Assembly (NCBI RefSeq): GCF_016135805.1
Contig: NZ_JADWOX010000002.1
Location: 62,001-126,000, forward strand
Source of the DNA: Caulobacter hibisci
Lineage (GTDB): Bacteria; Pseudomonadota; Alphaproteobacteria; Caulobacterales; Caulobacteraceae
Reading direction: 5' to 3'
DNA length: 64,000 nt
Part shown: piece after piece, positions 5,509 to 15,487 of the stretch
Layout of the letters: every line of letters begins with the position of its first letter
Numbering within the stretch: position 1 is the stretch's first letter
Translations under genes and position numbers: made by a program
Notes under the pieces: model-generated
Told to the model about the DNA's origin: nothing
Databases searched by the model: none
The model's input: only the letters and a program-made list of their open reading frames with translations

Positions 5509-5529
5509 AACAAAAAACAAATTTACTTA
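5509..5529. promoter_or_regulatory. Candidate ROK-repressor operator upstream of GH27
   Basis: The sequence follows the pattern TAAnnAAA-n5-TTTnnTTA, with AAC in place of the first TAA. It contains a 12-base run (CAAATTTACTTA) that also occurs, reverse complemented, in the operator at 15467-15487. Such an AT run is rare in this genome's GC background. It lies 295 bases upstream of the GH27 start and 17 bases after the receptor stop codon. The regulator is inferred to be the ROK protein at 14174-15385. Confidence 0.55.
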
Positions 5530-5622
5530 TTCAATTGACGGCGAGCACTTCGCCGTGAAGACTGCCCTTCAAGCGATCCGGATACGGCCTCGACGCCGTG
5601 ATTCAGGACCAGGGAGGGAACC

Positions 5623-5685
5623 ATGAATTTCAGGCACAGCCCTGACGCGTCCGAACCGAGCCTTTCTTCCCGCCGAAACGACTGA
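5623..5685 (+). CDS. Possible 20-residue leader peptide
   Basis: ATG at 5623 is preceded by AGGGAGGGAACC, one of the strongest ribosome binding sites in the window, and runs for 20 codons to TGA at 5683-5685. The peptide is hydrophilic, rich in Ser and Arg, and has no signal peptide. The start resembles that of the large receptor gene at 33666 (GGGAGGGAAACCAAG then ATGAAC). It could therefore be a relic of a deleted receptor gene or a leader acting on GH27 expression. It may also not be translated at all. Confidence 0.3.
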   Translation: MNFRHSPDASEPSLSSRRND

Positions 5686-5803
5686 GGCCTTCGTCGCCTC
5701 GCGGCCTGCCGGTTCACCCGCGCCTTTCCCAAGAATCCTGCACGCGGGAGCCAAGGGATCGGCGGGCCGCTTTTTCTTCCTCCCCTTCATTCAGCGTGAG
5801 CCC

Positions 5804-6994
5804 ATGAAGCGCCTCGTCTCGACCCTGGCGGCCGCCGCCCTGCTGATCGCCGCGATGCCCGCCCTGGCCGACGATCCGCCGCCGCCGCTGCCCGACAACG
5901 GCCTGGCGCGCACCCCGCCGATGGGCTGGAACAGCTGGAACAAGTTCGGCTGCAATGTCGACGAGACCCTGATCAAGCGCATGGCCGACGCCATGGTCTC
6001 GTCGGGCATGAAGGACGCGGGCTACGAGTACGTGGTCATCGACGACTGCTGGCACGGCGCTCGCGACGAGCGCGGCGACATCCAGCCCGACGCCAAGCGC
6101 TTCCCGAGCGGCATGAAGGCCCTGGGCGACTACATCCACTCCAAGGGGCTGAAGTTCGGCATCTATTCCGACGCCGGCCTGAAGACCTGCGCCGGCCGGC
6201 CCGGCAGCCGCGGCTTCGAGTACCAGGACGCCCGCCAGTACGCGGCCTGGGGCGTCGACTACCTGAAGTACGACTGGTGCATGGCCGGCACCCAGGACGC
6301 ACCATCGTCCTACTACATCATGTCGGCAGCCCTGCAGGCCACGGGCCGCGACATCGTCTTCTCGATCTGCGAGTGGGGTCATTCCAAGCCCTGGCTTTGG
6401 GGCGCCTCGGTCGGCAACCTCTGGCGCACCACCGGCGACATCTACGACGCCTGGGAGGGCGTGAAGGACTACAGCCTGGGGATGCTCAACATCCTCGACA
6501 AGCAGGCCGAGCTCCAGCCCTTCGCCAAGCCGGGCCACTGGAACGATCCGGACATGCTGGAGGTCGGTAACGGCGGCATGACCACCGAGGAATACCGCTC
6601 GCACTTCAGCCTGTGGGCCATGCTGGCCGCGCCGCTGATCGCCGGCAACGACATCGGCCACATGGACGCCGACACCAAGGCGATACTGACCAACAAGGAG
6701 GTCGTCGCCATCGACCAGGACGCCCTCGGTGTGCAGGCCCGGCGGGTCTCCAAGCAGGGCGACCTTGAGGTCTGGGCGCGCCCGCTGAAGGGTGGCGGCC
6801 GGGCGGTGGTGCTGCTCAATCGTGGCAAGACCGCCGCGCCGATCCGCGTCGACTGGACCATGCTCGACTATCCGGCGACCGTGCCGGCCAAGCTGCGCGA
6901 TCTGTGGGCGGCCAAGGACCTGGGCGTACGCAAGGGCGGCTATTCGGCGCACGTCGCGCCGCACGGCGTGGTGATGGTCACGGTAACGCCGTAA
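5804..6994 (+). CDS. GH27 alpha-galactosidase, secreted
   Basis: The 396-residue protein has a Sec signal peptide (1-22, ending ALA) and a GH27 barrel beginning LARTPPMGWNSWNKFGCNVDE. The nucleophile is D157 in KYDWC and the acid/base is D212 in WRTTGDI, both in canonical context. A C-terminal beta domain (about 310-396) completes the family's normal length. It removes alpha-1,6-galactose branches, for example from galactomannan or melibiose-type sugars, in the periplasm or outside the cell. It opens the glycan locus whose putative operator lies at 5509-5529 and is followed by a sugar kinase gene behind a second operator. The family is secure; the natural substrate is inferred from neighbours. 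Confidence 0.93.
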   Translation: MKRLVSTLAAAALLIAAMPALADDPPPPLPDNGLARTPPMGWNSWNKFGCNVDETLIKRMADAMVSSGMKDAGYEYVVIDDCWHGARDERGDIQPDAKRFPSGMKALGDYIHSKGLKFGIYSDAGLKTCAGRPGSRGFEYQDARQYAAWGVDYLKYDWCMAGTQDAPSSYYIMSAALQATGRDIVFSICEWGHSKPWLWGASVGNLWRTTGDIYDAWEGVKDYSLGMLNILDKQAELQPFAKPGHWNDPDMLEVGNGGMTTEEYRSHFSLWAMLAAPLIAGNDIGHMDADTKAILTNKEVVAIDQDALGVQARRVSKQGDLEVWARPLKGGGRAVVLLNRGKTAAPIRVDWTMLDYPATVPAKLRDLWAAKDLGVRKGGYSAHVAPHGVVMVTVTP

Positions 6995-7007
6995 CCGGCG
7001 GCATGAA

Positions 7008-7028
7008 TAAATAAAAAGCGTTTTTTTA
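7008..7028. promoter_or_regulatory. Candidate ROK-repressor operator upstream of kinase
   Basis: The site matches TAAnnAAA-n5-TTTnnTTA at every defined position (TAA 7008-7010, AAA 7013-7015, TTT 7021-7023, TTA 7026-7028). It starts 13 bases after the GH27 stop codon and ends 79 bases before the kinase start. It probably overlaps the kinase promoter, which would let a repressor block transcription of the kinase-esterase-GH2-SGNH block. Confidence 0.65.
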
Positions 7029-7107
7029 TTTGTGGCGCGGGCGCTGGACGCAAGGTAAGCCTCGGCGACGAAAGCGGCGGGCGGTCGCCGCGACAAGGGA
7101 GTGTTGG

Positions 7108-13719: not shown

Positions 13720-13738
13720 CCCTCGCCCATTCTACCGA

Positions 13739-13832
13739 GCATCCCCGCGAAGGCGGGGATCCAAGCCGAGGTAACCGGTTAGGCGCGGCGCGTGGCTCTG
13801 GACTCGGCTTGGGCCCCCGCCTTCGCGGGGGA
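13739..13832. repeat. Inverted intergenic repeat, CCCCGCGAAGGCGGGG type
   Basis: The left arm (13741-13770) is ATCCCCGCGAAGGCGGGGAT followed by CCAAGCCGAG. The right arm (13803-13832) begins CTCGGCTTGGG and carries the mirror hairpin. The element fills the gap between two convergent genes, where it could end transcription from both sides. It matches the elements at 461-554 and 61755-61860. Confidence 0.8.
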
Positions 13833-13856
13833 GATCGGAGTAAGAGCGGAAAAGGG

Positions 13857-14165
13857 CTAGGCCTCGCCCCGCAGCCGCCTGTTCAGCGCCACGCTGGCCT
13901 CCATGCGCGCCAGCTGCTCCGGCGTGGCCGCCGCCTGGTGCTTCGCCTTCCACTCCGACTGCGGCATGCCGTAGATCGCCTCGCGGGCCGCATCCTTGCC
14001 GAGCGTGCCATCGGAGGCCTCGTGCACCCAGTCGGCAAGGCAGTTGCGGCAGAAGCCGGCCAGGCCCATCAGGTCGACGTTCTGGGCGTCGGTGCGCAGC
14101 CGCAGATGCTCCACCAGACGGCGGAAGGCGGCGGCGGCGAGCTGGTCGTCGATCTCTACGGACAT
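13857..14165 (-). CDS. DUF1244 family protein
   Basis: This 102-residue protein fits the DUF1244 family, common in Alphaproteobacteria and of unknown function. Characteristic blocks are [20 protein letters not shown] (about 21-40), the conserved cysteines in CRNCLADW, and [13 protein letters not shown] (about 65-77). It has no signal peptide. It lies only 8 bases after the ROK regulator's stop codon on the same strand, so the two are probably co-transcribed. The Cys pair could bind metal, but nothing here proves it. Confidence 0.88.
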
Positions 14166-14173
14166 GTCGGCTC

Positions 14174-15385
14174 TCAGGTCTTTTGCAGCGCCGCGCGCGA
14201 GGGCAGCAGGCGTTCGATGATCGGCAGGATGGCCGCGCCCATGGCCGGGGCGTCGGCCGCCAGGGCCGCGCGCTGCACCGGGGCCAGGGCCGGCACGCCG
14301 GGAATGGCCGCCAGCTTGGCTTGCAGGGCCGCGGCCAGGCGGTCGACGATGCTCTCGGGCAGCCGGCCGCCGATATAGACGGCCTGCGGGTTGATCAGGC
14401 AGCTGATGGCCACCATCGGCCCGGCCAGCAGGTCGGCGGCCAGGTCGATCCAGGCCTCGATCGCCTCCTGGCCCTTGGACGGCAGGGTTTCGAGGTCGGA
14501 GGGGGCGGCGATGGAGAAGCCGTTGTTTTCGAGGAACTGGGCCAGGGCCGACAGCGACACCGCCTCCTGCAGGCTGGCGGCGTCGATGCGCGAGGAGGCC
14601 ACCGGCAGGAAGCCCAGCTCGCCGCTGCGCCCCTGGGCCCCGCGGAAATACTCGCCCTCGACCACCAGTCCACCGCCCAGGCCAGAGGTCACCAGCACGT
14701 AGAAGAAGCTCGGCGCATTGAGGCCGTGGCCGAAATGCAGCTCGCCCAGGGCCGCGGCGGCGGCGTCGTTCTCGACCATCACCGGCAGGTCGTGGCGGCG
14801 CGACAGCAGCTCGCGAATGTTGACGGTGTTCCAGGCCCCGTATTCGTCCGGCCGATGGGGCAGGTCCACGCGGGCCATGTCGTCGGGCATGGCCACGCCG
14901 ACGCCGATGATCCGGTCGGCCTGCACGCCCTTGGTCTTCAGGAAGGCGTTCCAGTTGGTCTCGAAGAACTCGACCACGGCGTCCGGCCCGGCGAAGGCCA
15001 CTTCCCAGGTCGTGCGCGCCCGCACCTGGCCGGCGAAGTCCAGCAGCAGGATGGTGACGTGGTCGCGGTCGATGTTGAGGCCGATCGAGAAGCAGCCGTC
15101 CGGATTGACCGCCAGGGTCATGGCCGGCTGGCCTCGGCCGCCGTGCAGCTTGCCGGCCTCCAGGATCAAACCGTCGTCGAGCAGGCGCTTGGTGATGTTG
15201 GTGATGGCCGGCACCGTCAGCCCGGTGAGGGCGGCGATCTCGGGCTTGGTCTTGGCGCCGCCGATGCGGATCGACTGCAGGGTGACGCGCTGATTGTAGT
15301 CGCCGGCCCGCTCCAGATTCGTGCCCGACAGGCTGGGACCGGCTTGCGAGGTCTTGCGGGCGGGGCTTTTGGGCGACTGGCTCAT
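14174..15385 (-). CDS. ROK-family transcriptional repressor (NagC/XylR type)
   Basis: The 403-residue protein has an N-terminal winged helix (about 40-95, [20 protein letters not shown] then KRLLDDGLI) joined to a ROK sugar-binding fold. The ATP-binding loop is absent. The zinc motif normal to ROK proteins (GH...CxCGxxGC) is also missing, replaced around [14 protein letters not shown], so it is a regulator rather than a kinase. It diverges from the GH5 gene, and the intergenic region carries an AT-rich palindrome at 15467-15487 whose pattern recurs before GH27 and the kinase. It is therefore the likely local repressor, released by a sugar from the glycan (inference). The DUF1244 gene follows directly. 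Confidence 0.9.
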
Positions 15386-15466
15386 CTGTGGTCTGGCTTA
15401 ACACCTGTGGGGCCAAGGGCGAAACCGTCCTTGCGCCCAGCATGCCATGGTTGGGTCTGTGTAGAT

Positions 15467-15487
15467 TAAGTAAATTTGCTTTCTTTA
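15467..15487. promoter_or_regulatory. Candidate ROK operator between repressor and GH5
   Basis: The site matches TAAnnAAA-n5-TTTnnTTA completely (TAA 15467-15469, AAA 15472-15474, TTT 15480-15482, TTA 15485-15487). It lies 81 bases before the repressor start on one side and 58 bases before the GH5 start on the other, which is ideal for autoregulation plus control of GH5. Confidence 0.7.

Follow-up and report, generated by a model that had tools for sequence, protein, structure and literature searches.

Which regulator, if any, would act through three AT-rich palindromes in front of the genes of one glycan locus of Caulobacter hibisci, and would it repress or activate these genes? The palindromes lie in a stretch of 64,000 nucleotides (assembly GCF_016135805.1, contig NZ_JADWOX010000002.1, positions 62,001 to 126,000), which we call the window and whose own numbering is used below. 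An earlier note on this DNA had described three sites of the form TAAnnAAA-n5-TTTnnTTA and proposed that they mark a ROK regulon. The palindromes are probably operators of the ROK-family transcription regulator encoded at 14174-15385 on the minus strand, which would probably control its own gene and the local cluster by sugar-released repression. The ROK-regulon reading is supported by the comparison of genomes, through the rarity of the motif, its conservation at orthologous promoters and its association with ROK orthologues. The targets would be the ROK gene itself, the GH27 gene, the kinase gene with the genes behind it, and the GH5 gene. From the comparison we infer ROK as the binder, repression over activation, and mannose as the signal.

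Allowing three mismatches, a scan of both window strands returned six rows for three distinct places, the three extra rows being register-shifted reads of the second and third sites. Operator 1 (5509-5529, plus strand) has two mismatches, both in the left outer triplet (AAC instead of TAA), and ends 274 nt before the ATG of the GH27 gene at 5804. Operator 2 (7008-7028, plus) is perfect and ends 79 nt before the GTG of the ROK kinase gene at 7108. Operator 3 (15467-15487, plus), also perfect, is common to the divergent ROK and GH5 genes and lies between their starts (15385 on the minus strand and about 15546 on the plus strand). The form of the sites and their positions upstream of gene starts in the glycan locus were thus as the earlier note had given them, and its claim of no other intergenic match holds for the whole window, where no fourth place was found on either strand at up to three mismatches. 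Dinucleotide-preserving shuffles of the window gave 0.15 matches on average, and none of 100 reached six. The expected rarity in a GC-rich genome was borne out, the only two perfect matches in 5,565,798 bases (49 contigs) being those of the window locus. With up to two mismatches the genome holds 16 places, three of them the window sites, versus seven for the reversed pattern, which served as the control in the genome scans. One site is imperfect, which could speak for chance AT-rich runs; the probability of this explanation is negligible in our view, and it is contradicted by the shuffles, the rarity in the own genome, and the conservation and genus scan described below.

Genomes with names were scanned using the ROK protein, and the presence of ROK in the 67 loci returned is therefore by construction. 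The nearest named ROK relatives are Caulobacter. Six Caulobacter loci (L016-L020 and L022) have all three sites at the orthologous promoters, none with more than one mismatch and operator 1 with one; the ROK/GH5 site is present in L021 (91% identity), which is a short contig. When the 21-nt stretches of each gap were ranked by conservation over seven aligned sequences, the site came first of 94 for the kinase, fourth of 111 for GH27 and sixteenth of 140 for ROK/GH5. At lower identity the site is kept upstream of the kinase in L023 (72%) and upstream of ROK in L024 and L025 (66%). Conservation next to orthologous genes, which the earlier note had named as a check, was thus found in six named Caulobacter, and a similar site is again found close to ROK orthologues of another family and of another class.

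The close relatives L016-L022 carry, in addition, a large TonB-receptor-like gene (named by eye) that the window does not have, with a further AT-rich palindrome upstream of it (L016:7728, L017:7722, L018:7724, L019:7723, L020:7728, L021:5179, L022:7721). This palindrome has two mismatches to the n5 form and one to an n4 form.

The distribution of the motif follows the regulator, also in scans whose genomes were not selected with the ROK protein. Exact matches occur in 18 of 199 family genomes: within the genus of the window in seven of the eight genomes whose ROK orthologue is at least 91% identical and in none of the 31 others, and outside the genus in 11 of 160; the genomes with exact matches are relatives and hence are not independent events. 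At one mismatch, 75 genus genomes gave 65 places, in 35 of the genomes, and the reversed pattern gave 41. Counted by hand, ROK, kinase or GH27 promoters account for 37 of the 65 places, distributed over 20 of the 31 genomes that have a ROK orthologue (a match at 1e-100 or better). In seven further ROK-bearing genus genomes, the stretch that separates ROK from a divergent kinase gene contains a site with two or three mismatches. The 44 genomes without the orthologue gave 13 matches, spread over 10 genomes. Off-locus near-matches number 28, below the 41 of the control, so the regulon looks local; a wider regulon was considered and rejected on this count. The scarcity of unrelated hits, on which the earlier note had made its proposal depend, is seen both here and in the absence of any other perfect match in the own genome.

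One off-locus near-match stands upstream of a TonB-receptor-like gene near a LacI-type gene (both named by eye), with TTGACA 5 bp further on (L166:3853, L167:3765, L168:3516, L170:3148). It recurs in six of nine close genomes (four of the six places read), the corresponding stretch of the own genome having a degraded left arm, and it was not counted as a ROK site. In another genus, an exact match in L116 (G129:C22:39404) has a ROK paralogue (38% identity, with internal stops) about 2 kb away.

Beyond Caulobacter, the site was detected in clusters of different design. Povalibacter uvarum and a Steroidobacter metagenome-assembled genome (MAG) share the same perfect site, TAAACAAATTTACTTTCATTA, 3' of the ROK gene and 5' of a ROK kinase gene, followed by an AGE-family gene and an MFS sugar transporter gene with its own one-mismatch site. 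In eleven loci of the Sphingopyxis/Stakelama group, a one-mismatch site close to the ROK gene is flanked by an MFS sugar transporter gene and a ManA-like gene; the latter has a partial likeness to mannose-6-phosphate isomerase (61 bits against a model cut-off of 116). In the same group L048 and L052 have two mismatches, and L053 and L054 weak matches only. Among the 15 loci of this group, a tblastn search at 1e-20 detected GH92 in all, the MFS gene in 13 and the ManA-like gene in 10. A third design, ROK next to the kinase gene with a perfect site between them, is found in a Sphingomonas MAG (L071). For the sites used in training, taken from the window and L016-L072, position weight matrix scores are circular.

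The motif itself is well defined. In 57 loci (1,175,230 bases) it gave nine exact and 38 one-mismatch matches, and neither the reversed nor the swapped-arm pattern gave any. Spacer variants at one mismatch gave 7 (n3), 17 (n4) and 16 (n6) matches against 38 for n5; 15 of the 16 n6 and nine of the 17 n4 matches are out-of-register reads of the same places, and the receptor-promoter site of the Caulobacter relatives accounts for seven of the remaining eight with n4. The n5 spacer fits best, and one candidate site prefers n4. Sites in Caulobacter are often extended to GAA-TAAnnAAA-n5-TTTnnTTA-TTC.

Several observations weigh against ROK-mediated repression through these sites. The remaining 26 Sphingomonas loci gave no match at one mismatch, and some of them show a decayed form past the ROK stop codon, for example TAACGCAATTTAACTTTTTAA. 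Within the genus, G207 and G215 (73% ROK identity) have the kinase site and none upstream of ROK, G197 has a borderline site and G225 none; the ROK upstream regions of G229 and G150 were left unscored and are counted on the same side. The arms of the sites, A-rich and then T-rich, are opposite to the ROK sites described in PMC4856308, which have a T-rich 5' arm and an A-rich 3' arm, the genomic sites of RokB differing from these. Finally, the distance of 4-5 bp between operator and -35-like hexamer at several targets would suit an activator; it speaks most strongly for dual action or an UP-element role.

In Sphingomonas loci with a divergent ROK branch (LHGTNPARAGERN; L063-L070), the element AAAAGAAAGTAGGTGTAAGTT or a close form is found near the ROK gene, mostly near 9848, and is perhaps another operator type.

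The pattern of published polarity, TTATTT-n5-AAATAA, was rejected, with no exact match and a single one-mismatch match in the 57 loci. The T-rich/A-rich order is usual in the literature rather than a defining feature of the ROK family. The unusual polarity would fit another cellular regulator acting at these sites. We consider this very improbable: the same regulator, ROK, accompanies unlike cluster designs in two classes (the loci having been fetched with the ROK protein), and within the genus the sites follow the ROK orthologue.

Would the ROK protein repress or activate? We judged this from where the operators stand relative to the promoters, and the -35 and -10 assignments rest on hexamers in alignments and on the Caulobacter consensus. 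A scan of 1-20000 with the sigma-70 consensus detected no promoter (0.5 expected). Upstream of the GH27 gene, the putative -35-like hexamer TTGACG (5535-5540, plus), conserved in the alignment of relatives, begins 5 bp past operator 1. The putative -35-like TTGCGC of the GH5 gene (15492-15497, plus) lies 4 bp past operator 3. For the kinase, the candidate TGGCGC (7033-7038, plus), 4 bp past operator 2, is weak in the window, where several hexamers score equally as -35-like; the relatives have CTGGCG. The ROK gene has GCTATAAA (15484-15491, minus), a putative -10-like element by the Caulobacter consensus; the operator overlaps this element in all eight close loci (the window and L016-L022). The clade whose ROK proteins are about 60% identical shows an apparent overlap of the operator with the kinase -35, and a GACTATGA-like element about 12 nt further on. 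These two overlaps fit repression, and the placement of the operators at the core promoter without one fixed position is read as favouring it as well. The autoregulation proposed in the earlier note is upheld in part: the overlap with the ROK -10-like element and the ROK/divergent-kinase site kept in the clade of about 60% identity agree with it, and the two genomes of 73% identity without a ROK site do not.

Among the 26 site-gene pairs tested, however, a -35-like hexamer with five or six matching letters lies 4 or 5 bp past the operator at GH27 (five pairs), GH5 (four), the kinase of L023 (one) and the ManA-like gene (four), and a CTGGCG-like hexamer lies 2 bp past it at the Caulobacter kinase (three relatives) and 3 bp past it at the receptor-like gene (three pairs). 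The ROK protein could then repress its own gene from the -10-like site and activate GH27, GH5, the kinase and the ManA-like gene of Sphingopyxis from a fixed spot upstream of the -35. CysR, described as a dual ROK-type regulator (PMC2580772), would be a precedent. We regard such dual action as doubtful. The spacing is not seen in the five Povalibacter, Steroidobacter and L071 pairs, which have no full hexamer at 2-5 bp and one full match at 15 bp; the probable overlap with the kinase -35 in the more distant clade does not fit it; and the hexamer set was picked after the sequences had been viewed.

The same geometry, with an AT-rich AAA-n5-TTT core just upstream of -35-like hexamers and a similar arrangement at the receptor promoter beside the LacI-type gene in related genomes, raises the question of whether the sites are UP-elements for RNA polymerase instead of regulator operators. 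This is very improbable, as the palindrome extends to the outer triplets, perfect matches follow the ROK orthologue in the genus, and the sites overlap promoters in other positions too. The composite AAA-n5-TTTnnTTA-n5-TTGnC is also rare: with two mismatches allowed, the own genome has 11 places, two of them exact, and the control gives five. The composite match C12:34796, upstream of a transglycosylase-like open reading frame (ORF; named by eye), was taken as chance. A tentative and rather unlikely idea joins both functions: the operator with reversed arms might also serve its target promoters as an UP-element, at 4-5 bp from the -35, where the regulator would compete with or recruit the alpha subunit of RNA polymerase, this geometry being kept in Caulobacteraceae and Sphingomonadaceae.

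Under the preferred reading of repression by ROK, the ROK dimer would in the absence of sugar occupy the operators, which coincide with the core promoters or lie just upstream, and would keep expression low. Mannose or a small mannoside would bind the ROK domain, the protein would leave the DNA, and the cluster would be transcribed. A mannose or mannoside signal is expected because GH2, GH92, AGE-family, ManA-like, kinase and MFS genes stand beside ROK across the cluster designs, and also because ManR of Thermotoga maritima controls mannan genes and answers to mannose (PMC3750489). The signal is likely mannose or a mannoside rather than galactose, which the GH27 enzyme could release.

The regulator belongs to the ROK family by its domain (PF00480, 89.1 bits against a cut-off of 22.9, residues 101-387). 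Its helix-turn-helix (HTH) part is weakly recognised, HTH_24, MarR and MarR_2 at residues 36-75 all scoring under their cut-offs. The recognition-helix region is well conserved in orthologues of at least 48% identity, and the 15-residue stretch that precedes the HTH is conserved as strongly. The zinc-site cysteine motif of ROK proteins such as NagC and Mlc is seen in the kinase (CWCGRHGCLE) and not in the regulator. The best solved relative by sequence is the full-length ROK family protein of PDB entry 7rhe, with which the regulator aligns from residue 20 (query residues 20-396, E 5.7e-57).

Among the known systems, ManR of T. maritima is similar in being a ROK regulator of mannan and mannoside genes with a small regulon of two operons and mannose as the tested effector (PMC3750489). 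It differs in belonging to another phylum, in controlling an ABC transporter, and in its sites, which are among the Thermotogae sites called T-rich and then A-rich in PMC4856308, the opposite of the sites here. NagC and Mlc of E. coli share the regulator fold by model (80.8 and 57.1 bits, both far below the cut-offs) and AT-rich operator arms; they differ in controlling N-acetylglucosamine and glucose functions with many targets, and their arms have the opposite order to the sites here (PMC4856308). RokB of Streptomyces coelicolor is a ROK regulator with a divergent self-associated promoter and with sites off the common T-rich/A-rich pattern, but its genomic sites have A-rich boundaries with a TVCVT centre and its targets point to amino-acid metabolism (PMC4856308). 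In the accessible portions of two further studies, the Proteobacteria-wide one has NagC as its ROK regulator (PMC5343134) and the LacI-family one gives a ManR as a LacI regulator (PMC4052901). A literature search, with many journals outside its coverage, found no such ROK regulon for Caulobacter or Sphingomonas.

By its genes the locus appears to be a mannan-type sugar cluster. On the plus strand, the GH27 alpha-galactosidase-type gene (5804-6994; Pfam Melibiase_2, 280 bits) is followed by the ROK-family sugar kinase gene (7108-8034; Pfam ROK, 253.7 bits), whose top NCBIfam model is the fructokinase PRK09557 (390 bits, under the cut-off of 443). Behind it stand genes for a carboxylesterase-family protein (8060-9535; Pfam COesterase), a GH2-family enzyme of the mannosidase/glucosaminidase type with a laminin-G-like domain (9584-13012; Pfam) and an SGNH/GDSL esterase-type protein (13009-13719; Pfam Lipase_GDSL_2). 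The GH5-type gene (15546-16535, plus; Pfam Cellulase, 98.2 bits) lies across operator 3 from the ROK gene. Such a gene set would suit the use of galactomannan or acetylated mannan.

Operator 1 is far from the GH27 start codon because this transcription unit has a long leader of about 270 nt. Its region 5623-5780 contains a small upstream ORF of 20 codons (5623-5685, plus), which was read in all nine Caulobacter genomes with a full-length leader, and a conserved hairpin that ends in a T-rich run (5701-5770, plus; from fold and covariation analyses). The leader was matched in 11 of 75 genus genomes, nearly at full length in nine, partially in G215 and over 34 nt in G035, and wherever its surroundings were read it sits upstream of GH27. 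Compared with shuffled sequences, the fold does not stand out (z -0.95). For the outer helix, 99.2% of cells are paired and two pairs are changed on both sides, but a covariation score as high was reached by 121 of 500 shuffles and as many such pairs by 132 of 500. No Rfam match at the gathering score was detected in the window, and an antisense match in the leader (15.7 bits versus a gathering score of 40) was rejected. The GH27 leader may be a candidate attenuator.

Taken together, the results give a ROK subfamily of Caulobacter, Sphingopyxis and some Gammaproteobacteria an operator that can be tested and a likely signal, mannose. In Alphaproteobacteria the sites could also be used as compact promoter parts that respond to sugar. 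Should the reversed arms prove to be genuine operator arms, they would bear on how the HTH domains of ROK proteins sit on DNA.

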